Shown here piece by piece: positions 51,854 to 62,744 of a DNA stretch of 64,000 nucleotides. The DNA is from Xylanimonas ulmi (lineage in GTDB: Bacteria; Actinomycetota; Actinomycetes; Actinomycetales; Cellulomonadaceae), in contig NZ_SGWX01000001.1 in assembly GCF_004216535.1 (NCBI RefSeq), positions 806,001 through 870,000 on the forward strand, given 5' to 3'. The notes under the pieces are model-generated. The model searched no databases. It was not told the origin of the DNA and saw only the letters and a list, made by a program, of their open reading frames with translations. Within the stretch, counting starts at the first letter, position 1, and every line of letters starts with the position of its first letter. The translations under genes and the position numbers were made by a program.

Positions 51854-52380
51854 GTCGATAGACGCCTGGAGTTGGCCCGAGCCGCGGACAGCCTCTGGCG
51901 GGGGTGCGACGTCGTCGGGCAGTGTGGTGCGTGTCGTCGCGCACGCGACGGCGGCCCGTGGGGCGTCTGGGAGGCATGAGCCGACGAGCGCCCACCCCGG
52001 TCTGACAGGGGTGCGGGAAGACCTACGCCCCCTCGGTTGCCGGCTGAGTGCCGAGCCTGGGGGGACCGCCGGCTCGGCCGGTCGGCGGCGGTGGGCGACC
52101 CGGGCGAGGCGCCCCGACCACAGTCGGGGGCGGCGAGCCCCGAGCGGCGAGCTCGGAGGAACGGGTGGGTCTGGCGACCGCCTCTCGCGACGGCGAGGGG
52201 AACCGGACGCGTCGCGACGGCGGCGCGGCGAGACCGTGCGCGGGGCCCCGGACGTGCGATGAGCGCGGACCGGGGCCTTCGTGCGTCCGCGGGGCGCGGT
52301 CGCACCTGCGGACCCTGCGGCTGCGAGGCGCCCCGCAGTGTGCTCGGGTGGAGGAGCACACCCCGCCACCGGAGGAGAGC
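51854..52380. other. 527-bp gene-free region upstream of the His-rich gene
   Basis: No frame has convincing coding character on either strand. Two inverted repeats are present: GGCCCCGG/CCGGGGCC (52244-52251 and 52270-52277) and GTGTGCTC/GAGCACAC (52338-52345 and 52354-52361), the latter 19 bp before the ATG. The composition is G-rich and more irregular than neighbouring intergenic DNA, compatible with gene decay. Confidence 0.6.
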
Positions 52381-52560
52381 ATGACGACACCTGACCAGCA
52401 CCCAGACCACAGCGTCGCCGAGCACAGCAAGGCGGCCCACGAGCACGGCGCCGGCTGCGGCCACCAGAGCGTCGAGCACGACGGACACGTCGACTACGTG
52501 CACGACGGCCACCGGCACTCGCCCCACGGCGACCACTACGACGAGCACGGCGCGGGCTGA
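52381..52560 (+). CDS. Small histidine-rich protein
   Basis: A 59-aa protein, about one fifth histidine: HEHGAGCGHQSVEHDGHVDYVHDGHRHSPHGDHYDEHGAG. The CGHxxVxHDGHxDYxHDGHxH core is a pattern I recognise from small conserved bacterial proteins, sometimes labelled as zinc-transport-related without evidence. Metal binding is plausible. GGAGGAGAGC directly precedes the ATG at 52381, a strong ribosome-binding site. A hairpin lies in its leader and a 15-bp-stem terminator directly follows, so it is a monocistronic unit. Confidence 0.82.
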   Translation: MTTPDQHPDHSVAEHSKAAHEHGAGCGHQSVEHDGHVDYVHDGHRHSPHGDHYDEHGAG

Positions 52561-52823: not shown

Positions 52824-53462
52824 GTGCGCCGATCCGGGTACACGACGACGGTGTGCGACCCTGCGACCGTCGACGGCCCGCTGCGCGCACAGCTCGACGA
52901 GTTGCAGGCCACCAGCCGCCGCGGCGGACGCGAGCGCGGCTTCTCGATGACGCTGTCGCGGCTGTTCGACCCCCGCGACACGGGGTTCCTGCTCACCGTG
53001 GCGACGAACCCGCAGGGGCGGGCGGACGCGTTCGTGCAGTGGGCGCCGGCCCCCGGCATCGACGGCTGGTCGCTCGACGTCATGCGCCGGCGCCTCGACG
53101 ACGACGTGCCCAACGGCGTCATCGACGCCTGTGTGGTCGCGACCATCGAGGAGGTCCTCACGCGCGGGCGGTCGGGTCTGTCGCTCAACTTCGCGCCCAT
53201 GCGGTCGGTCCTCGAAGGGGAGCGCGACGCCGGAGGGCGGCTCGCCGAGCTCACCCGGCCGCTGTTGACGCAGTTGCGCGAGCGCACGCAGATGTCGTCT
53301 CTGGCCGCGTTCAACCGGAAGATCCGGCCGCGCTGGAAGCCGCGGTACGTCGTGCTCGACTCGGTCGAGTGGGTCGCCGCGCAGTCCCTCGTCATGGCCG
53401 ACGTCGAGGGGGTGACCGAGCTGCCCGTCATCGGCAGGTTCCTGGGGCGCGGCGAGGGGTGA
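52824..53462 (+). CDS. N-terminally truncated DUF2156 (aminoacyl-phosphatidylglycerol synthase-type) protein
   Basis: A 212-aa frame matching the C-terminal GNAT-like half of lysyl/alanyl-phosphatidylglycerol synthases: GRERGFSMTLSRLFDPRDTGFLLTVA, FVQWAPAPGIDGWSLDVMRRR, PNGVIDACVVATIEEV, LSLNFAPMRSVLE, FNRKIRPRWKPRYVV. The membrane flippase region and the first GNAT half are missing. No ribosome-binding site is seen before the GTG at 52824. It is probably a pseudogene remnant, though translation cannot be excluded. Its 3' end overlaps the convergent DUF916 gene by 35 bp. Confidence 0.72.
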   Translation: MRRSGYTTTVCDPATVDGPLRAQLDELQATSRRGGRERGFSMTLSRLFDPRDTGFLLTVATNPQGRADAFVQWAPAPGIDGWSLDVMRRRLDDDVPNGVIDACVVATIEEVLTRGRSGLSLNFAPMRSVLEGERDAGGRLAELTRPLLTQLRERTQMSSLAAFNRKIRPRWKPRYVVLDSVEWVAAQSLVMADVEGVTELPVIGRFLGRGEG

Positions 53463-54510
53463 GGAGGCGGGCGCGGCCCGGGCGCGGCGTCGCGGGCCCG
53501 GTCAGCGCGACCGTGCGCGCTCGGCGTCGTCGCCGCAGGTTGCGCCAGCCGACCGCGACGGCGAGCGCGAGCAGCGCGAGCGCGGTCAGGAGAGTCCACG
53601 GCGGCGCCCACACCAGGACGGTGGGGCTGGTCATGGTCACCGTCTCGCTCAGGTCCTGGCCGCGCGAGGTGGCGCGGGTGGCCTCGACCGTCAGCCAGTA
53701 GGGCCCCAGCGGTGGCACCCCCGTCAGGACGCCGCTGGTCGTGGTGGCGCCGCCGGGCAGGATCTCGTCGGTGTCGTCCAGTGCGACCGACCCGGTCCAC
53801 AGTCCGAACAGCGAGCGGACCCGGACTACCGCAGTCGGGTCGAGGCGGATGTTCCCGGAGTTGACCAGGGTGGTCTCGACCTCCAGCCGACCCGGCGTCA
53901 GCGGCCCGAGGCGACCGGCGTAGGCGCCGCGCAGCGGGCTCGCCTCCAGCGCCGGCGCGACGGGACCCCCGACGCGGACGTAGACCCGGGTCCCGGTGGC
54001 GATCTGGACCGCGGGGCCCTGCGACTGCGCGACCTCGCTGACGGCCAGGACACCGCCCGCGTGGTCTCCAGGCTCGGCGTCGCGGGGCACGTCCAGCACG
54101 AACGGCACGACGACCGACGCGCGCGGTGGCACCGTCACGCGGCCCTCGGCGAGGCGCAGCCAGACGCCGACCCGCGTCGGGGTGTCCTGCGGCGTCCGCA
54201 CGGTGAACGCGCCGTCGGGGCCGTGGTCGGCGTCCTGGACGTAGACGTCGACGGTGAGCGGCTGCTCGCCGAGGTTGCGCACCGCGACGTGGTCCTCGAC
54301 ACGGGCGCCCGGCTCGACGGCGTAGTCGAGGCGCCCGCGCCCGTCGGGGCCGTCGGCGCTCGCGGGGACCACCGCCCAGGCGCGTGGGGAGTCAGCGGCG
54401 GGGTCGCCGTCGCCCGGCAGCGCGGACACGGGCGTCGCACCGGCGGCGAGCAGGGCGAGCAGGAGCGCCCCGGCGACGGCACGCGTCAGGGCTCGGTACA
54501 GCACGGGCAT
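53428..54510 (-). CDS. DUF916 / WxL-interacting-protein-like surface protein
   Basis: A 360-aa secreted, membrane-anchored protein. A signal peptide (AVAGALLLALLAAGATPVSA) is followed by two immunoglobulin-like beta domains as in WxLIP: FVVPASADGPDGRGRLDYAVEPGARVEDHVAVRNLGEQPLTVDVYV, then VSVVVPFVLDVPRDAEPGDHAGGVLAVSEV. A C-terminal helix (WTLLTALALLALAVAVGW) ends in a basic tail. In Firmicutes such proteins bind peptidoglycan and a WxL protein. Here the next upstream gene encodes a WxL-like protein. GAGGA lies 6 nt before the ATG at 54510. It is the last gene of the zinc-type operon. Confidence 0.82.
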   Translation of the reverse strand: MPVLYRALTRAVAGALLLALLAAGATPVSALPGDGDPAADSPRAWAVVPASADGPDGRGRLDYAVEPGARVEDHVAVRNLGEQPLTVDVYVQDADHGPDGAFTVRTPQDTPTRVGVWLRLAEGRVTVPPRASVVVPFVLDVPRDAEPGDHAGGVLAVSEVAQSQGPAVQIATGTRVYVRVGGPVAPALEASPLRGAYAGRLGPLTPGRLEVETTLVNSGNIRLDPTAVVRVRSLFGLWTGSVALDDTDEILPGGATTTSGVLTGVPPLGPYWLTVEATRATSRGQDLSETVTMTSPTVLVWAPPWTLLTALALLALAVAVGWRNLRRRRRARTVALTGPATPRPGRARLLTPRRAPGTCR

Positions 54511-54574
54511 GGGGTTCCTCGGTTGTCGCGGCGGTGGGGCGGTCACCAGGACGGTCACCACGGCGTGCGTGAGC

Positions 54575-54602
54575 GGGCGCCGGCCGGTCCTGGCCGGCGC
54601 CC
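54575..54602 (-). terminator. Hairpin between the WxL-like gene and DUF916
   Basis: GGGCGCCGGCC (54575-54585) with its complement (54592-54602), 8 bp after the WxL-like stop and 64 bp before the DUF916 start. It may attenuate or end transcription within the operon. Confidence 0.6.
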
Positions 54603-54609
54603 GCGGTCG

Positions 54610-56106
54610 CTAGATGACGGTCAAGAGCATCAGGCCGGTGTACGCCCCGGGGGCGATGGTCAGCGGCGCCTCGATCCGCAGGTCGGCGCCGAGCACCGAC
54701 GTGCCGAGCGACGCGCCCTGGGGCGCGGACGCCAGGGCCGACCAGCCCCGGATGCCCAGGTTTCCTCCCGTGAACCCGGGCGCGACGGGTGCCCCGGGCG
54801 TGACGGTGGCGCCCGAGGACGAGACGACCTTGGGCGTCCACCCGAGGTAGCGGCCGTCCAGGTAGCCGCCACCCGAGGTCACCAGCGCGCGCACCCGTCC
54901 CGTCGCGGCCCAGCCGGGCTTGTCGGGCCGGGTGTCGGCGACGGTGATGCCCGTGACCGAGCCGTCCGACACGTAGCGGTCGGCCGTGGGGCTCAGGGCG
55001 AGGTCGCTGAGCTTCGCCTTGCGCCCGTCGGGCGCCACCGAGACGACCAGGGCGCCCTCGTTCGACGGCAGGGTGACCTCCAGCTCGGGGCCCGTAACGG
55101 GCGTCGCGCCGTGGTCGTCGACGAGGATCGCGACCGGCGCGCTCTCGGCCACGACCGCGTCGCCGTCGCCGAGCACGGCGACCTTGACCTCCTGCGGCCC
55201 GGTGATCACGAAGCCGTACGTGCCCGACGACGCGCCCTCGACGACGGTCCACGGGGCGTCAGCCGTCGGGCGGGTCGACCAGCGCAGCCGGTCGGAGGCC
55301 GGGGTAGGGGACTGCTCGGCGCGCAGGATCGCGACCTCGCCCGTGTGGTAGTGCTGCGGCACGCCGTCGATGACGACCGTCGTCGTGGCGCCGGGACCCG
55401 GCTCCTGGCCGCCGCCCTCGCCGCCGCCCTCGCCTCCGCTTCCTTGGTCGCCGACGACGAAGGTGTAGGTGGCGGTGTTGGACGTCGCCGACGTCGCGCC
55501 GTCCTGGCTGGTCACGGTCGCCTGCGCCGTCAGGTGATAGACGCCCGGCGCCGTGAACGCCCAGTTGGCGTGCACATGCGCGAGGAAGTCCTGGTGGATC
55601 GTGCCGGGCAGCGTCCAGGAGTCGGTGACCGTCTGCGTGAGCGCGCCGAACGCGCCGTTCGACCACAGGTAGACGTCGCCGGGGCCGTCGACGGCGCTGA
55701 CCTTGAGGTCGACGTCGGCGTCGGGGCCGAAGCGCGAGGCGAGCCCCATGCTGTCCCAGCCCGGCCAGACGAGGTCCCGGTCCTGGGCGATCGGCAGGTG
55801 GTAGAAGCTCGTCGGCAGGCCGGGCGGCGCCGAGCCCGCCGGGACGTCCGTGACGCGCGCGCGCTCCTTGACCACGATCTGCACGTCCTGCGGCGCGTGC
55901 TCGACGTGGTGGCCCGTGACGTCCTCCTTGAGGTTCAGACGGACGCTGTCGTCGTCGTTGAGCGCGAGGTTGAACAGGTCGACGTGGCCCGTGTCCAGGC
56001 GCAGCGGGTCGGGGCCGTCGGCCGCGTGGGCGCCCGTCGGCAGGGCGGCGAGCGCGACGGCCGCGACCAGGGCCGTCGTCTTGGTTCGTCGATGGATGGT
56101 GCTCAT
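54610..56106 (-). CDS. Choice-of-anchor M surface protein with WxL-like C-terminus
   Basis: A 498-aa secreted protein. After a signal peptide (TALVAAVALAALPTGAHA) come LDTGHVDLFNL and the module HVHANWAFTAPGVYHLTAQATV, the TIGR03769-type surface domain. A Gly/Glu linker (GGEGGGEGGGQEPGPG) leads to an Ig-like segment. The final ~140 residues are a WxL-like domain: LGIRGWSALAS, GASLGTSVLGADLRIEAPLTIAPGAYTGLMLLTVI. The last strand and the position next to DUF916 support that call. There is no LPxTG. AGAGGAGAC precedes the ATG. Confidence 0.8.
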   Translation of the reverse strand: MSTIHRRTKTTALVAAVALAALPTGAHAADGPDPLRLDTGHVDLFNLALNDDDSVRLNLKEDVTGHHVEHAPQDVQIVVKERARVTDVPAGSAPPGLPTSFYHLPIAQDRDLVWPGWDSMGLASRFGPDADVDLKVSAVDGPGDVYLWSNGAFGALTQTVTDSWTLPGTIHQDFLAHVHANWAFTAPGVYHLTAQATVTSQDGATSATSNTATYTFVVGDQGSGGEGGGEGGGQEPGPGATTTVVIDGVPQHYHTGEVAILRAEQSPTPASDRLRWSTRPTADAPWTVVEGASSGTYGFVITGPQEVKVAVLGDGDAVVAESAPVAILVDDHGATPVTGPELEVTLPSNEGALVVSVAPDGRKAKLSDLALSPTADRYVSDGSVTGITVADTRPDKPGWAATGRVRALVTSGGGYLDGRYLGWTPKVVSSSGATVTPGAPVAPGFTGGNLGIRGWSALASAPQGASLGTSVLGADLRIEAPLTIAPGAYTGLMLLTVI

Positions 56107-56137
56107 GCGTGTCTCCTCTGGGTGGTGGGTGGTGGGG

Positions 56138-58201
56138 TCAGGCCGTTGCGGGGCGGCGGGGCGCCAGCGAGGCGGCGGCGACGAACGCCAGGCCGACGAC
56201 GAACAGCGTGACCGTCAGGCCGGTCAGATCGGCGAGGGTCTCGGAGTCGACGCCGGTGCGCGGCAGCGTGCCGGCGCCGCTCGCGCCGCCCGGACCGCCC
56301 CCGGTGGGGCCGGCGGCGGCCGGCAACTGGCACTCGCGCCCGTCGGCGGTGCGCCCGACGGTCTGCTGCGTGGTCGTGGCGCGTGCCGCCGCTGACGCGT
56401 CGCCCGGTCCGACGAAGAAGTTCAGGGTGCTCGTGCCGGTGCGCCTCTCGCCGCCGACGGTCGCGGCGAACGTCAGCGTGGCGTGATAGGCGCCGGGCTC
56501 GGTGAACGCCCAGATCGCGTGCACGTGGACGCCTGATGTGCCCACCGGGATGGCGGTGCTGCGCTCGAAGCCCTCCACGGTGCCGAAGTACCGCTCACCC
56601 AGATTTCCGAACGATCCCATCGAGTACACGGCGAGTCGCCCCGGGCCCTCCAGGTTGTCGAGGGTGAGCGTCACCTCGCCGTCGACCTTGCCCGCGATCG
56701 TCGGGTGCTGGGTGTTCCAACCGAGCCAGGGCACCCCGGGCAACTGGGTCAGCGGAACCTGCCAGACCTGTCCGGCGCCGAGGAACGCGAACTCGCCGCC
56801 CGGCGCCTGTACGGCGGCGTCGTCCGTCAGGTGGAGCACCAGCGTGGCGGGGTCGACCCATGGCGCGGGCTGCGTGCGGTCGTCCTTGACGAGCGCGCGC
56901 AGCCCGGCGCCGTCGACGACCGGCCCGAAGTCGAAGTGGCCGGAGGTCACGACGTCGGCCTCACCCGGCCCGAGCGTGCTCTCGACCTGCTGCGGCAGGC
57001 ACTGGTCAGGCGCCTCGTCCGCCGAGGCGACGGTCAGCGGCGACCAGCCGACCAGCGCGGCGTCGGCCTCGCGCACGACGACGCGGTGCTGGCCGAGGTC
57101 GACGTCCTGCGGCAGCGCGAGAGTCACCGTCGCGTCGGCGTCGACCTGCCGCCAGCCGAGGTCGGTCGGCGTCGACAGGACCCAGGTCGAGACCCAGCGT
57201 CCGCGCAGCGACTCGGGCACCGCCACCGTCACGAACGCGCCTGGCGCCGCGGTGTCGATGGCCAGCGTGACGTCACCGCGCGCGGTGTCGGTCAGCAGCG
57301 TGGTGTCGGGGGCGGGCAGGGCGCCGGCCGGGGGGCCAGCCTCGTCCGTGACGCCGCCCGCGGACGTCGCCTCCCCGAGACTCGGGGCGTCCGGCGTCTC
57401 CGGCGTCGTGGCGCCAGTGTCGGGCGTGGCGTGGGCCGAGGTCGGGGCGGGGGACGAGGTCGGGAAGGGGCCGGTCGCGGAGTCGGACGGCGGGGCGGGC
57501 TCGGCCTGCGGCGGGGCGGGGGACGAGGTCGGGAAGGGGCCTGTCGCGGAGTCGGACGGCGGCGCGGGCTCGGCCTGCGCCGCGCCGGGGGTCAGGCTCG
57601 GCTCGGGCGCGGGCGGCGCATCGGCCGCGGGCGCGTCGACCTGGAACCGGTAGGCGACCGGGGCGGCGGACAGCGCGGTCCCGTCGGCGAGCGTGGCGCT
57701 CGCGGTGAGGGTGACGGCGTAGGCGCCGGGCGCGCTGAAGTCCCACCGCGCGGGCAGAGTCGTGCCGACCGGGACGGTGGCCGACCTGGGGCCGCCCGAG
57801 GCCAGCAGCGTGCGCCCGGCGCCGTCGTCGGGCGTCGAGACCGTGACGTCCCCCGGTCCGGTCACATCGGTCAGCGCGAGGGTGACCAGGTCGTCGGCCA
57901 GGACGTCGTAGGGCAGGAGGTCGGTGTCGACCCCGAGGTCGAGCACGGCCGGGTCGAAGACGCGGACGATCGCGGCGGACGGGTCGAGCGCGGCGCCCGC
58001 CGCGTCGCGCGCGCCGAGCGCAAGGCCCCCGACACGGTAGGTGACCGTGAGGGCTCCGAGGTCGGCGGCCTCGACCAGGGCGGGAGGGGCTGGCGCGGCG
58101 GCCTGGAGCGGACCGGCCAGGGCCAGGCCGCCCGAGGCGAGCAGGCAGGTCGCGCCGATCGTGGCGAGCGCGCGGCGTCGCCGGTCGGTGATGACGGTCA
58201 T
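56138..58201 (-). CDS. Transporter-associated surface protein with LPRTG anchor (TIGR03773-type)
   Basis: A 687-aa secreted wall protein. An N-terminal signal (RRALATIGATCLLASGGLALAG) leads to beta domains and a Pro/Ser-rich linker with a 23-residue duplication. The C-terminal half carries SGHFDFGPVVDGAGLRALVKDD, WLGWNTQHPTI and HVHAIWAFTEPGAYHATLTF, the anchored-repeat module. Residues 646-650 are LPRTG, followed by a hydrophobic helix and RRPATA tail, a classical sortase signal. The ATG overlaps the permease stop. No sortase gene is in the window. It is thought to work with the adjacent ABC transporter. Confidence 0.87.
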   Translation of the reverse strand: MTVITDRRRRALATIGATCLLASGGLALAGPLQAAAPAPPALVEAADLGALTVTYRVGGLALGARDAAGAALDPSAAIVRVFDPAVLDLGVDTDLLPYDVLADDLVTLALTDVTGPGDVTVSTPDDGAGRTLLASGGPRSATVPVGTTLPARWDFSAPGAYAVTLTASATLADGTALSAAPVAYRFQVDAPAADAPPAPEPSLTPGAAQAEPAPPSDSATGPFPTSSPAPPQAEPAPPSDSATGPFPTSSPAPTSAHATPDTGATTPETPDAPSLGEATSAGGVTDEAGPPAGALPAPDTTLLTDTARGDVTLAIDTAAPGAFVTVAVPESLRGRWVSTWVLSTPTDLGWRQVDADATVTLALPQDVDLGQHRVVVREADAALVGWSPLTVASADEAPDQCLPQQVESTLGPGEADVVTSGHFDFGPVVDGAGLRALVKDDRTQPAPWVDPATLVLHLTDDAAVQAPGGEFAFLGAGQVWQVPLTQLPGVPWLGWNTQHPTIAGKVDGEVTLTLDNLEGPGRLAVYSMGSFGNLGERYFGTVEGFERSTAIPVGTSGVHVHAIWAFTEPGAYHATLTFAATVGGERRTGTSTLNFFVGPGDASAAARATTTQQTVGRTADGRECQLPAAAGPTGGGPGGASGAGTLPRTGVDSETLADLTGLTVTLFVVGLAFVAAASLAPRRPATA
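57444..57581 (-). repeat. 69-bp tandem duplication in the surface-protein linker
   Basis: Two near-identical 69-bp units (57444-57512 and 57513-57581) encode consecutive copies of PAPPSDSATGPFPTSSPAP plus neighbours. The match at nucleotide level indicates a recent duplication that lengthens the wall-spanning stalk by 23 residues. Confidence 0.88.
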
Positions 58202-59166
58202 GAGACAGCTCCGGTGGTGACGGGGTCGGACAGGGTCGGGGGCTCATCGCTCGGCGCGGCGCCGGGGCGGGCGGAGGCAGCGGCGCTCGCGGGCGTGCCG
58301 GTGGGTTCGGGTCGCGGACGGCGTCGGACGCGGGCGATCAGGCCCTGGCGCGGGGCGAGGAACCAGGACAGGAGGAACGCGGCCGTCAGGACGAGCACGA
58401 TCGTGCCGCCGGTCGGCAGGTCGTAGGACCAGGAGAGATACAGGCCCACCAGGGCGCCGCAGGCTCCGATGACGGGCGCGAGCAGCGTCATGACGCCCAG
58501 GCGGTCGGTCAGCAGGCGGGCCGTGGCGGCCGGGGTGATCAGCAGGGCCAGCACCAGGATGTTGCCGATCGTCTGGACCGCGATGACCACGGCCAGGGTC
58601 ACCAGCACGTACAGGACCAGGTCGAGCCAGAACACCGGCACGCCCATGGCGCGCGCCGACTCGCGGTCGAGCGAGATCGTGACCAGCTCCTTGCGCAGGC
58701 ACGCGAGGACGGCGAGCACCGCGGCGCTCGTGACGCCCACGACGATCAGGTCCGAGGTGGGCACGCCCGTGATCGAGCCGAACAGGAACTGCTGGAGCGA
58801 CCCCGCGTACCCGGGCGCCCGGGAGATGACCACGATGCCGAGGGCGAAGGAGCCCACCAGGAAGACGCCGATGACCGAGTCCTCCTTGAGGCGCCGGTTC
58901 TGGGAGAAGACGGCGATGAGGACGGCGGTCAGCACACCGGCCGCGGCGCCGCCTAGGACGAGGTTGCCCGACAGCACGAAGGCGACGGCCAGCCCCGGGA
59001 AGACGGCGTGGGCGACCGTGTCGCCGATGAAGGCCATGCCGCGCAGCACGACGTAGCACCCGACGACGCCGCACACGATCGAGGACATGACTGCCACGGC
59101 GAGCGCCTTGGGCAAGAACGCGAGGTCGGGGTTGAGCAGGTCGGTGAGGAAGTCGAGCGGCGACAT
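58198..59166 (-). CDS. Metal ABC transporter permease (anchored-repeat type)
   Basis: A 322-aa ABC-3 family permease with about eight helices, typical of zinc/manganese importers. Signatures include VVLRGMAFIGDTVAHAVFPGLAVAFVLSGN and VQTIGNILVLALLITPAATARLL. The short Pro/Ala-rich C-terminal tail is cytoplasmic. The ATG at 59166 overlaps the ATPase stop (TGATG), and its stop overlaps the next gene. It forms the membrane channel of the importer. Confidence 0.93.
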   Translation of the reverse strand: MSPLDFLTDLLNPDLAFLPKALAVAVMSSIVCGVVGCYVVLRGMAFIGDTVAHAVFPGLAVAFVLSGNLVLGGAAAGVLTAVLIAVFSQNRRLKEDSVIGVFLVGSFALGIVVISRAPGYAGSLQQFLFGSITGVPTSDLIVVGVTSAAVLAVLACLRKELVTISLDRESARAMGVPVFWLDLVLYVLVTLAVVIAVQTIGNILVLALLITPAATARLLTDRLGVMTLLAPVIGACGALVGLYLSWSYDLPTGGTIVLVLTAAFLLSWFLAPRQGLIARVRRRPRPEPTGTPASAAASARPGAAPSDEPPTLSDPVTTGAVS

Positions 59167-59918
59167 CAGGCCGCCCCGAGGACACGGGCCAGGGCGCTGC
59201 CTGGGGCGACGCCGAACGTCGTGGCCCAGGCCTCCGGGTCGGCGGCGAGGTCCGCCGGCGCGCCGGTCGCCACGACGGTGCGGTTGAGCAGGGCGAGGCG
59301 GTCGCACGAGTCGAGCGCCCCGAGCAGGTCATGGGTGGTCATGAGCACCGCGCGGCCCTCGCGGGCCAGCGCCGTGAACAGCGCCGCGAGCACCTCCTGG
59401 GTGGGCAGGTCGAGGCCGGTGAACGGCTCGTCGAGCAGCAGCAGGCGGGGGCGCGGCGCCAGGGCGCGGGCGACCAGGACGCGCTGGCGCTGGCCGCCGG
59501 AGAGCTGGCCGACCGGACGCCTCGCCAGCGCCGTGAGCTGGACCCGGTCGAGCGCGTCGGCGACGGCCTGCCACTCGGCGTCCCCGGGCCGGCGGCGCAG
59601 GCCCAGTCGTCCGGTCAGCCCGGTCATCACCGCGTCGGCCACGCAGATCGGGAAGTCCCAGGCGAACTCGTGCCGCTGCGGCACGTAGCCGATCGGCGCC
59701 CGCCCCGGCCGGGCCGGGCGGCCCTCGACCAGGACGCGGCCGGCGACGACGGGCTGGACGCCCAGGACGCAGCGCAGCAGCGTCGTCTTACCCGCCCCGT
59801 TGGGTCCGAGCAGGCCGACCAGCTCGCCCCGATCGACGGCGAGGTGAGCCTCGCGCAGCACGGTGCGACCGCCGAGGTCGACGGTGACGCCCTCGACGCG
59901 CAGCGCCGCGCCCGTCAT
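59166..59918 (-). CDS. Metal ABC transporter ATP-binding protein (anchored-repeat type)
   Basis: A 250-aa ABC ATPase. Walker A is GPNGAGKTT, the Q-loop is PQRHEFAWDFPI, the signature is LSGGQRQRV, Walker B is LLLLDEP, and the H-loop is THD. It is closest in style to ZnuC/MntB. It starts MTGAALRVEGVTVDLGG at an ATG overlapping the stop of the upstream surface-protein gene, and its stop overlaps the permease start. It energises import of the metal. Confidence 0.94.
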   Translation of the reverse strand: MTGAALRVEGVTVDLGGRTVLREAHLAVDRGELVGLLGPNGAGKTTLLRCVLGVQPVVAGRVLVEGRPARPGRAPIGYVPQRHEFAWDFPICVADAVMTGLTGRLGLRRRPGDAEWQAVADALDRVQLTALARRPVGQLSGGQRQRVLVARALAPRPRLLLLDEPFTGLDLPTQEVLAALFTALAREGRAVLMTTHDLLGALDSCDRLALLNRTVVATGAPADLAADPEAWATTFGVAPGSALARVLGAA

Positions 59919-61015
59919 CGCTCGGCTCCGTCGGGGGTCGCCCCGGCCGGGTCGGGGGTCCGAGGGGCGGGCCCACGGCCGACGCCTAGGCCCAGGGCCC
60001 GGCGCTTGGCGCGACGGCTGCGCGCCGCCGCGACGCCCGCCGCGGCGGCGACCATGGCGAGCAGCGCGGCGGCGGCGATCAGCAGGACGGGACCGAGCCG
60101 GTCGCCGTCCCAGCCGTCGGCGGCCTCGTCCGCGGCCACGTCCGCGGCGCCCGCGGTGGCCGAGGCGCCGGGCTCGCCGCCCTGCCACCGCGCGGTCAGG
60201 GCGTCGTCGGTCGGCGTCTGAGAGCCGACGGCGAACCGGATCACCTGCGTGTCGGCCACGTGCGTGCCGTCGACGAGGTCGGCCTCGACGCGTAGGCGCA
60301 CCAGGTAGACGCCCGGCTGTGTGAAGACCCAGTTGGCGTGCGTGTGGGTGTTGACGTCGACCCAGGCGGGCTGCTCCTCACCCGAGCGGGAGTCCCACAG
60401 GACCTGGGGCTGGGCGAAGCCGCTCGCCTGGAGGAAGACCGAGACCGAGCCCGGGCCCTGCGCGCCGACCATCGACAGGGTGACACCGCGGTCGATGCGG
60501 CGCATGACCTCGGGGTCCTGGGTGTTCCATCCCAGCCACACCGCCTGCGGGTTCTGGGTCTGCGGCACCACCCAGACGAGCTGGCCCGGCTGCGCGCCGA
60601 GGAAGGCGTACGCCGGGTCGTCGGGCGCCTCGACGGCGGCGGTGTCGAGCACCCGCAGCACCGTCTCAGCGGGGTCGCGCCACACGCTCGTGGCGGCCGC
60701 GTCGGACTTGGCGGCGTCGTCGTGCACGAGCAGGCGCCACCGTCCGCCGTCGAACCGGGGGCCGAGGTCGACGTGACCGGTCTCCAGGACGCGCGCGCCG
60801 CGCGCGACCGGCTGGCCGGCGTCGATCGTCTGGTCGAGGTCTGTGTCGGGGGCCGGTGTGTCGGCGATCGCTGGGGTTGGCGCGACAAGGCTCACCGTCA
60901 GGTTGAGCGTGAGGCTAACCATCAGCATCACGATCAGGCTCAGGGTGAGGCTTGGCGGGCGCCGGGCCGTGTCGGGCGGGGAGAGTCGGGGCATCGAGGC
61001 TTCCTGACGGGTCAT
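59915..61015 (-). CDS. Choice-of-anchor M surface protein, membrane-anchored (TIGR03769-type)
   Basis: A 366-aa secreted protein. A signal/anchor sequence (SLIVMLMVSLTLNLTVSLVA) leads to the anchored-repeat domain: LETGHVDLGPRFDGGRWRLLVHDD, VWLGWNTQDPEV, and HTHANWVFTQPGVYLVRLRV. A C-terminal helix (VLLIAAAALLAMVAAAAGVAAA) followed by many Arg/Lys retains it in the membrane without a sortase motif. It overlaps both neighbours by 4 nt. The histidine-rich loop suggests zinc binding, an inference. Confidence 0.85.
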   Translation of the reverse strand: MTRQEASMPRLSPPDTARRPPSLTLSLIVMLMVSLTLNLTVSLVAPTPAIADTPAPDTDLDQTIDAGQPVARGARVLETGHVDLGPRFDGGRWRLLVHDDAAKSDAAATSVWRDPAETVLRVLDTAAVEAPDDPAYAFLGAQPGQLVWVVPQTQNPQAVWLGWNTQDPEVMRRIDRGVTLSMVGAQGPGSVSVFLQASGFAQPQVLWDSRSGEEQPAWVDVNTHTHANWVFTQPGVYLVRLRVEADLVDGTHVADTQVIRFAVGSQTPTDDALTARWQGGEPGASATAGAADVAADEAADGWDGDRLGPVLLIAAAALLAMVAAAAGVAAARSRRAKRRALGLGVGRGPAPRTPDPAGATPDGAER

Positions 61016-62700
61016 GGGGACAGGCACTCGCGCAGCGAGTCGGCGTTGAGGCGCATCATCTGGACATAGCCCGTCACCTCGTCGTCGAAGGCGTCGCCGT
61101 AGATCGCGCACACCCGCACGCCCAGGTCGCGGGCGACCTCGGTGAGCGTCGAGGAGCGGGCCGCGAGGTTCGGCTCGAGGAACACGGCCGACACCCGCAG
61201 GGTGCGCAGCGTGTCGGCGAGCTTGCGGCGGTCGGCGAGAGAGGGCTCGGCCGCGGGGTGCGGGGTGACGAACCCGGCGACCCGCACGTCGTAGGCGTCG
61301 GCGAGATAGCCGAAGGCGTCGTGCGTGGTGACCAGGTTGCGGTGGGAGGCGGGGATCTGGGCGAGCGTGCGGCGCACGTAGGCGTCGGTCCGATCGAGCT
61401 CGGCGAGGTACGCGGCGGCGTTGTCCCGGTAGGCGCCGGCGCCGGCGGGGTCGGCGGCGATCAGGGTGTCGCGGATGAGCTGCGCGTAGGCCATCGCATT
61501 GCGCACGTTCTGCCACAGATGGGGGTCGATCTCGCCGTGGACGTGCTTGCCGAGCACCGCCTGGGCGAGCTGGTACACGCGCTCGCCGGGCCTGCCGAGG
61601 AACCGCAGCGCGGGGCCGGCCGGGATCTCGTCGAGCGCCTTGGCCGGGACGTCGATGACCACCTGCTCGGGGGAGTAGCGCCGCTGGCTGCGCTCCCCGC
61701 CTCCCTCCGGGTCATAGCGGACCGCGAGGCCTGGGGCGGCGCCGTCGTCGCCGAGGTCCGCGGTCAGGTCCGCGTGTCCGCGGTCGAGCACGGCGACACC
61801 GGGGGCGGGGTCGGGGTCGACGCCCACGGCGAAGGCAAAGGTCCCGGAGCCCAGGTCGATGGGCCGCGAGGTGTCGTCGACCTGCAGGTGGGCGCGCAGC
61901 GTCAGCGTGTAGCGGCCTGGCTCGGTGAAGGCCCACGACAGGTGCGTGTGCGCGTCGGCGGGCAGGGACAGGGTGTCGTCCCGGTATCCGTTCGCGGCGT
62001 CGAAGCCGTTCGAGGAGTCGATGTACACGTCGGTCTCGCCGAAGCTGCCGGTCAGATAGGCGAAGACGTCGCCCGGGCCGGTCGCCGCGGTGGCCGACAC
62101 CAGCACCTGCGAGGCGCGCGTGGCCCCGAGGTGGGCGCCGTCGCCGTGCGCGCGCAGGCCCAGCCACACCGTGTCGAGGGTGACGTCCTCGACCAGCGGG
62201 ATGAGCTCGGCCGCGTACTTGACGGACTCCTCGGCGAGCGAGACCGAGACGGCGTCGTCGCGCAGGTTGGCGTCGAGGGTCTTGATGACGCTGTGCTCCT
62301 CCAACAGCGCGTAGTTGCTGAACGCCACGTCGGCGTACACGACGTTGCGGGCGTCGCGCAGCGAGGGCTCGTAGGTGTGTGGGTCGCCGCCGTCAGGCAC
62401 CAGGGACACGACGTGGACGCGGTCGCCGCCGACGTGGCGCACGAGGTCGGCCAGCAGGCCGGTGGTCGTCACGACCTGGAGGCGGGCGTCGTCGGGTGAG
62501 AGCGCCGGTCGGCCCGCACAGCCGGCGAGTGCGACGACGAGCGCGAGCGCCGCGGACAGGCGGGGCGTCCGCGCGCCCCGAGGCGGGCGCGGCGCGGCAA
62601 CGGCGGCGCGGGCGGCGCGGGCCGGTGGGCTGGGGGCGTCGGGGGACGCGACATCGGGCACGGGGGAGCTTTCGTCTTTGCGGGGGCGTGCGCGGGGCAC
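61012..62700 (-). CDS. Metal-binding lipoprotein of ABC transporter, split by an inserted surface domain (TIGR03772-type)
   Basis: A 562-aa lipoprotein (lipobox LAGC, Cys61). The cluster A-I binding-protein fold is interrupted. The N-lobe (GLLADLVRHVGGDRVHVVSLVPDGGDPHTYEPS, His108) comes first. An insert of about residues 175-365 holds HTHLSWAFTEPGRYTLTLRA and GHADLTADL. The fold then resumes with HVHGEIDPHLWQN (His386/388/394), VTTHDAFGY (His460), FLEPN (Glu509) and YGDAFDD (Asp539). His/His/His-or-Glu/Asp ligands indicate Zn or Mn. It starts with a GTG at 62700, 26 bp from a Zur-like box, and is the first gene of the operon. Confidence 0.9.
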   Translation of the reverse strand: MPRARPRKDESSPVPDVASPDAPSPPARAARAAVAAPRPPRGARTPRLSAALALVVALAGCAGRPALSPDDARLQVVTTTGLLADLVRHVGGDRVHVVSLVPDGGDPHTYEPSLRDARNVVYADVAFSNYALLEEHSVIKTLDANLRDDAVSVSLAEESVKYAAELIPLVEDVTLDTVWLGLRAHGDGAHLGATRASQVLVSATAATGPGDVFAYLTGSFGETDVYIDSSNGFDAANGYRDDTLSLPADAHTHLSWAFTEPGRYTLTLRAHLQVDDTSRPIDLGSGTFAFAVGVDPDPAPGVAVLDRGHADLTADLGDDGAAPGLAVRYDPEGGGERSQRRYSPEQVVIDVPAKALDEIPAGPALRFLGRPGERVYQLAQAVLGKHVHGEIDPHLWQNVRNAMAYAQLIRDTLIAADPAGAGAYRDNAAAYLAELDRTDAYVRRTLAQIPASHRNLVTTHDAFGYLADAYDVRVAGFVTPHPAAEPSLADRRKLADTLRTLRVSAVFLEPNLAARSSTLTEVARDLGVRVCAIYGDAFDDEVTGYVQMMRLNADSLRECLSP

Positions 62701-62725
62701 GCGCTGGCAGGGTCCAGAGGACGAG

Positions 62726-62744
62726 AATGAGAATGGTTATCATT
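62726..62744. promoter_or_regulatory. Zur/Fur-like operator
   Basis: AATGAGAATGGTTATCATT is an imperfect palindrome (7 of 9 positions paired) 26 bp upstream of the binding-protein start. Its core TGAGAATGGTTATCA matches the actinobacterial Zur consensus TGAAAATGATTTTCA at 12 of 15 positions. It probably represses the operon when zinc is sufficient. Confidence 0.75.

Follow-up and report, generated by a model that had tools for sequence, protein, structure and literature searches.

A predicted zinc importer operon of the anchored-repeat family

We analysed a 64,000-nucleotide stretch of the genome of the actinobacterium Xylanimonas ulmi (contig NZ_SGWX01000001.1, 806001-870000; called here the window), which has a GC content of about 74% within a genome consisting of a single 3.97-Mb contig. 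The open reading frame (ORF) list of the window places seven genes on the minus strand between 53428 and 62700 (Table 1). In the order of transcription, they encode a binding protein, a ZnuE-like protein, an ATP-binding cassette (ABC) transporter ATPase, a permease, a TIGR03773 wall protein, a module-bearing protein with a WxL-like end and a DUF916/WxLIP-like protein. The first five genes overlap successively by 1, 4, 1 and 4 nt, and gaps of 31 and 48 nt precede the last two. The preliminary description of this DNA had the number, strand and overlaps of the genes right, but not the outer limit of the operon, since the binding-protein ORF starts at 62700 at the earliest and not at 62744.

Table 1. 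Predicted features of the operon, in window coordinates (TM, transmembrane; aa, amino acids; Ig, immunoglobulin)
Feature	Coordinates	Strand or sequence	Family match or position
Putative Zur box	62728..62742	TGATAACCATTCTCA read on minus strand	28 bp upstream of earliest binding-protein ORF start
Lipoprotein substrate-binding protein, ZnuA/AztC type, predicted permuted module inserted at aa ~176-380	61012..62700	-	TIGR03772
ZnuE-like protein, exported, with a single module and a C-terminal TM helix	59915..61012	-	NF038134
ABC transporter ATPase	59166..59918	-	TIGR03771
ABC-3 family permease	58198..59166	-	TIGR03770, PF00950
Sortase-type wall protein: half-module without HxH, intact module, LPRTG, TM helix, short tail	56138..58201	-	TIGR03773
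Module protein with Ig-like region and WxL-like C-terminal domain; TM helix absent	54610..56106	-	NF038134
DUF916/WxLIP-like partner, C-terminal TM helix	53428..54561	-	WxLIP_PGBD E 1.6e-4, below gathering score

Three products pass the curated cut-offs of the anchored-repeat ABC transporter family (bits scored/cut-off): the permease with TIGR03770 (458/297), the ATPase with TIGR03771 (337/269) and the binding protein with TIGR03772 (732/350). Together with the TIGR03773 match of the wall protein (224/190), these scores bear out the importer type and the family identity proposed earlier. In the binding protein, PF01297 is matched in two stretches, and the lipobox cysteine C61 is invariant in 46 aligned substrate-binding proteins (45 of the 80 named loci plus the window). 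By alignment and family precedent, H108, H394, H460 and D536 are the probable ZnuA-type ligands. The best fold match to the binding protein is AztC; the window proteins miss the equivalog cut-offs of AztA, AztB and AztC (176/220, 211/280 and 200/350 bits, respectively). When TIGR03772 was searched against 396 genomes of the phylum at E 0.001, 254 matches were obtained, mostly to the part common to ordinary binding proteins, and three of them were above the cut-off. These data support the prediction of an importer of the ABC-3 metal type with a zinc-type binding protein.

The pattern TGANAANNNTTNTCA, allowing up to one mismatch, has a single match in the window, at the box upstream of the first gene, against 0.06 expected from shuffles. 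The genome contains six exact matches and none to the reversed pattern. Of the other five sites, two precede a canonical znuA-ATPase-permease operon closing with a Fur-family gene, one lies upstream of the gene for ribosomal protein L28, with type B L31 behind it, and two lie between an L33 gene and a divergent gene for a GTPase related to ZigA and MRF. L28, L31B and L33 exceed the cut-offs of their models. With the named models, the second ZnuA and its importer genes score below cut-off, as do the GTPase and the Fur-family protein, so that their names, including that of Zur for the last, rest on family and place. This box-bearing gene set agrees with the Zur regulons described for actinobacteria (PMC2823685, PMC5472717). 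A sigma-70 promoter scan at the box returned no match. As a separate observation, the canonical operon (L215, G000:C1:613800-624800) carries two boxes, the terminal Fur-family gene and a ZnuA with a His-rich loop.

The box was also searched in 142 related loci (L067-L208, 2.7 Mb), which are not independent: many come from congeners, and at least seven contigs were drawn in duplicate, one copy from each of two collections. With up to one mismatch, 169 sites were found, compared with 13 for the reversed pattern, and 105 of the 142 loci have at least one. The great part of these sites (122 of 169) lies within 7 kb upstream of a binding-protein ORF, a density of 14.9 per 100 kb compared with 2.0 to 3.0 elsewhere. 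The Zur/Fur-like palindrome and the control by zinc that had been proposed from this sequence are thus both supported: the box is the sole match in the window, the five further genomic sites stand at zinc-deficiency genes, and the homologues of Corynebacterium diphtheriae agree. These results support the assignment of the operon to the predicted Zur regulon, with probable control by zinc starvation.

Manganese or iron might instead be the metal served, the box then being a Fur/Mur-type site. Cluster A-I binding proteins do include manganese and iron binders, and the binding protein of the window has matches to the MntC and EfaA models as well. We nevertheless hold this to be very improbable indeed, as the same box occurs only at zinc-deficiency genes in this genome, the third ZnuA-type ligand is His as in AztC and not Glu as in the manganese-binding MntA, and the orthologues in C. 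diphtheriae show a response to zinc and to Zur (PMC6711530).

A shared HxD/HxH module and its permuted form in the binding protein

A six-frame translation of the window contains precisely four copies of the motif H[TV]H[AL]xW[AV]FTxPGxY, in the same four sequences that the preliminary description had listed, and GWNTQ[HD]P is present, as also stated there, in two of the four proteins. All four score above cut-off with NF038134 (choice-of-anchor M) and TIGR03769, among them the ZnuE-like protein with 202 bits (NF038134 cut-off, 55) and the WxL-type protein with 141 bits. A chance origin of the motif is ruled out, the motif being part of the curated NF038134 domain. The genome holds six NF038134 matches, one of them below cut-off, and all lie inside the operon. 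The idea of one shared module therefore stands for its presence in the four proteins, but not for its uniformity, since its order is swapped in the binding protein and the LPRTG protein has an extra half-module without HxH.

Conservation was followed in 63 loci, from 61 of 396 genomes of the order (those with a TIGR03770 permease, the window's included) and two from a draw on the phylum. In the best full-length module of each locus, H80, D82, H223 and H225 (numbering of the ZnuE-like protein) are kept in 63/63 cases, as are H251, H253, H309 and D311 of the binding protein; the four module residues are likewise kept in all 27 aligned WxL-type proteins. When the two-half modules of 143 loci (the 142 and the window) were counted, binding proteins left out, 456 of 473 had both HxD and HxH, 13 had HxD alone and four had neither. 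A further 189 C-halves had no matched N-half: GHxD was found at most 120 residues upstream in 78 of these, 70 with HxH, and the remaining 111, without GHxD upstream, divide into 46 with HxH and 65 without. The two motifs thus tend to be kept or lost jointly, as expected of one site, and they lie close together in AlphaFold models of C. diphtheriae ZnuE and ZnuG (PMC12445094). We infer that HxD and HxH would form one zinc-binding site in each intact module.

Surface frames of about 1700 to 2550 residues, read from stop to stop and in some cases ending at the locus edge, were seen in five loci (L070, L072, L085, L125 and L129). They are strings of modules and half-modules, some halves being without HxH.

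In the binding protein of the window, NF038134 is aligned as positions 77-184 followed by 1-73, and HxH (251-253) precedes HxD (309-311). Half-profiles made from ZnuE-like modules found the C-half followed by the N-half in 117 of 142 binding proteins and the C-half alone in 25; the N-half preceded the C-half in none of the 142. Motif order agrees, with HxH before GHxD in 142/142 and DPHxW after both in 131. Re-ordering the halves raised the median best single-domain score from 49.7 to 90.4 bits, and from 46.7 to 83.3 bits in the protein of the window. An improvement was obtained in 114 of the 118 testable proteins, 25 of 143 having been excluded with an N-half that was undetected or unplaced. 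The same re-ordering improved none of 249 ordinary single-module proteins, a control biased towards the native order, since modules of this kind were the source of the profile. AlphaFold2 strand lists also agree in swapped order, with 7 and 7 strands in the N-part and 10 and 9 in the C-part. Two tandem modules stripped of their outer halves could give the same arrangement; this origin is disfavoured by the spacing of the halves (median 6 residues, range -1 to 74) and by the gain from re-ordering.

A FastTree phylogeny was made from 250 modules, a sample of 557 distinct ones. All 70 modules from binding proteins group in a single pure split (support 1.0), which, as far as FastTree support goes, fits a single insertion. 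Neither the ZnuE-like nor the other surface modules make up a single clade (their largest pure splits hold 15 of 70 and 23 of 110, respectively), and we therefore claim no history for them.

The place of the insertion was considered next to solved binding proteins, whose matches break off around residues 134-151 and start again at 384-391, with HVHGEIDPHLW. The second ZnuA of the genome has a histidine/acidic run immediately before its DPHFW. In AztC, the D-loop covers residues 117-133, just ahead of H138, and this loop, with three histidines, is essential for the transfer of zinc from AztD (PMC7463823). The break in the alignment and the location of the D-loop suggest that the inserted module holds the zinc-accepting position. 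Taken together, these data support the view that the binding-protein module is a circular permutant of the surface module, placed where AztC has its D-loop.

Predicted anchoring of the surface proteins

The ZnuE-like protein has a hydrophobic stretch at aa 309-327 followed by a basic tail. The sortase-type wall protein consists of a C-half and then an N-half/C-half pair, with HxD at 421, HxH at 559 and LPRTG at aa 646; eleven sortase matches were found in the genome. The WxL-type protein is modelled by AlphaFold2 as all-beta (predicted local distance difference test, 80). Pfam WxL (PF13731) has no match in it up to E = 1; at that threshold the same model matches 12 of its 27 aligned relatives (27 of 31 sequences were aligned), with a best E of 1e-4. 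Inspection of the alignment by eye shows conserved PGW and LGW, with no Leu two residues on. Its neighbour, the WxLIP-like protein, has a TM-type hydrophobic stretch at aa 315-333 and scores 22.2 bits with WxLIP_PGBD (DUF916, PF06030; gathering score, 27.3), a model that matches 21/21 aligned relatives (of 33 sequences) with a best E of 6.6e-13. Searches of PDB sequences gave antibody matches for the WxL-type protein (best E 0.002) and no match for the WxLIP-like one.

Across the 142 loci, proteins with a whole WxL-like end were counted where a match of E below 1e-20 reached the C-terminal end. This left out eight loci in which the match covers the middle Ig-like part only (L080, L083, L091, L142, L156, L176, L177 and L208), as well as L150, in which it stops short of the end. 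Such proteins are found in 28 loci, all of which have a DUF916-like gene; the two genes are adjacent in 26 and 6 to 8 kb apart in L175 and L207. DUF916-like genes are present in 32 loci, the extra four being L165, L169 and L174, which start at a contig end, and L150, with its deviating WxL-type end. Of 396 genomes of the phylum, 58 have a DUF916-like match at E 1e-10 or below.

These data make four modes of anchoring plausible: a lipobox cysteine, a C-terminal TM helix, LPRTG, and a WxL-like domain with a WxLIP-like partner, the last being a distant match. All four had been put forward in the preliminary description and may be retained, although the WxL and DUF916 labels are weak for the window's own proteins and stand through their relatives. 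In the profile searches proposed there, TIGR03769, TIGR03772 and TIGR03773 scored above cut-off in the window's proteins, WxL had no match up to E = 1, and DUF916 stayed below its gathering score.

Two more WxL-like/WxLIP-like pairs, without a choice-of-anchor M match, lie elsewhere in the genome (G000:C1:1409271-1410713 on the minus strand and G000:C1:1554037-1555672 on the plus strand), so that the pair looks like a general anchor of which one copy serves the operon. In known WxL/WxLIP complexes, likewise, a DUF916 protein ending in a TM helix accompanies a large exported protein whose WxL-type domain is C-terminal, and WxL proteins are reported almost entirely from Lactobacillales and Bacillales (PMC10599100). 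By contrast, the pair of the window is a divergent one from an actinobacterium, and its cargo is a zinc-type module. In the open-licence text of PubMed Central (PMC), we found no work on WxL/DUF916 in actinobacteria that evidently concerned a zinc operon.

The modules could also be mainly adhesive or structural, made in zinc starvation for attachment to surfaces or a host, with the metal only stabilising the fold. The modules have an Ig-like beta fold and belong to long wall proteins, and Foldseek returned generic and adhesin-type Ig-like structures for the WxL-type protein, at low TM-scores. This explanation appears very unlikely to us, given that the module forms part of the binding protein and that the histidines of ZnuE are needed for low-zinc growth in C. 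diphtheriae (PMC12445094).

Beyond the operon, a convergent ORF (52824-53462, plus strand) overlaps the 3' end of the WxLIP-like gene. A His-rich ORF of 59 codons (about 52381-52560, plus strand), inside the listed ORF 52048-52560, is found about 0.9 kb past the 3' end of the operon; it lies on the opposite strand and by eye resembles a small metal-binding protein.

Proposed zinc capture and hand-over, and related systems

The operon is a variant of a known system, of which a close relative has been studied in Corynebacterium, and the interpretation given in the preliminary description holds in its broad lines, with its core idea largely in print. Its statement that the TIGR03769-TIGR03773 family is described by sequence only is out of date, as C. 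diphtheriae homologues were published in 2019 and 2025 (PMC6711530, PMC12445094). The znuAECB/znuF-znuG cluster (dip0438-0443) carries the same family names for binding protein, ATPase and permease, with dip0438, 0440 and 0441 listed under anchored-repeat names (Table 1 of PMC6711530). Its repression by zinc and Zur has been described with lacZ fusions of two promoters and with electrophoretic mobility shift assays of Zur on predicted sites (PMC6711530). ZnuE and its histidines are required for growth in low zinc, ZnuE, ZnuF and ZnuG respond to zinc in nano differential scanning fluorimetry, and ZnuF is located in the wall without any of six sortases (PMC12445094). The same article had already noted the reversed HxD/HxH motif in ZnuA, and discussed capture, delivery and storage in comparison with the Pht proteins. 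As in that cluster, the gene of a module protein stands between those of the binding protein and the ATPase in the window, additional wall proteins carry modules, and the HxD/HxH motif has its order reversed in ZnuA. It differs in that one box was found, upstream of the first gene, whereas C. diphtheriae has two Zur-regulated promoters, and in that the WxL-like/WxLIP-like pair takes the place of the sortase-independent ZnuF.

We consider it probable, though well short of certain, that the seven genes form a Zur-repressed zinc-scavenging operon of this anchored-repeat (ZnuAECB/ZnuFG) type. The wall modules, held by sortase or by the WxL-like/WxLIP-like pair, would capture zinc and raise its local concentration, and the membrane-tethered ZnuE-like module would pass it on. 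The permuted module of the binding protein would then receive the zinc and feed the neighbouring H108/H394/H460/D536 site, from which the permease would import it. We thus infer a path of wall capture, hand-over through the ZnuE-like protein and acceptance by the permuted module.

Several observations weigh against this reading. The AlphaFold2 model of the binding protein has a mean confidence of 77.6, but the stretches that join the module to the lobes (155-175 and 381-391) are below 50, so that the model does not fix the orientation of the module. The 46 C-halves mentioned above retain HxH without a detected HxD, and in 37 of the 142 loci a Zur-type site is absent even when one mismatch is allowed. 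In C. diphtheriae, the His-to-Ala proteins still respond to zinc, deletion of znuA has only a modest effect, and deletion of znuF or znuG is harmless to growth in importer-positive cells (PMC12445094).

The main rival explanation is that the wall modules are a store or sponge for zinc, serving to hoard it or to deny it to neighbours, and that only the importer and the ZnuE-like protein take up zinc, without any relay from protein to protein. In C. diphtheriae without ZnuAECB, the presence of ZnuF and ZnuG reduces growth in low zinc, an effect for which ZnuG needs its histidines (PMC12445094), and the znuF and znuG phenotypes are as compatible with capture or with a sink as they are with a relay. 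Wall proteins of the related loci often carry several modules. A pure sponge leaves unexplained, however, that a homologous module is permuted into the importer's binding protein at the acceptor loop. The binding-protein and ZnuE-like genes also occur together in 63/63 loci, and we regard the sponge as rather unlikely. It is conceivable, and we propose it tentatively, that a donor-type wall module was permuted and spliced once into the accepting loop of the binding protein, so that zinc would pass along a relay of homologous modules from wall to membrane to importer.

A precedent for a zinc donor and acceptor is given by AztD and the D-loop of AztC in the AztABCD system of Paracoccus denitrificans, likewise a zinc-type cluster A-I importer (PMC7463823). 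Unlike in AztABCD, profile searches found no AztD match among the seven window proteins, and unlike in AztC, the loop position of the window protein holds a whole domain related to the donors. In AdcA, the extra domain is C-terminal and ZinT-like. AdcA itself is a two-domain zinc lipoprotein (PMC7858048). The streptococcal Pht proteins with AdcAII are discussed as a further gram-positive case, in which zinc-binding proteins of the surface would supply a binding protein; the Pht motif, HxxHxH, is unrelated to the module of the window (PMC12445094).

It should also be mentioned that Gardnerella genes with anchored-repeat names are up 62- to 121-fold in a medium simulating genital secretions (Table 1 of PMC11979175). 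This operon is among the most induced genes there; zinc is not mentioned in the text, and zinc limitation would be a possible explanation.

Open-licence PMC text yielded no paper using TIGR03769, a single relevant one for the names ZnuE, ZnuF and ZnuG, and no related paper on circular permutation in a zinc-binding protein. New here are the acceptor-loop permutation that we predict, the conservation of HxD and HxH as a pair, the genome-wide evidence for the regulon and the coupling to a WxL-like/WxLIP-like pair. This pair is a candidate for a sortase-independent anchor in the actinobacterial wall, a problem left open for ZnuF of C. diphtheriae. Gram-positive bacteria have no closed periplasm, and the question arises by what route a metal caught at the wall gets to a membrane importer. 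The same type of module in the wall, on the membrane and, as predicted, permuted in the binding protein makes this question testable with purified parts, and the permutation would show where to look, namely at the position of the AztC loop whose histidines are essential to the transfer of zinc from protein to protein.

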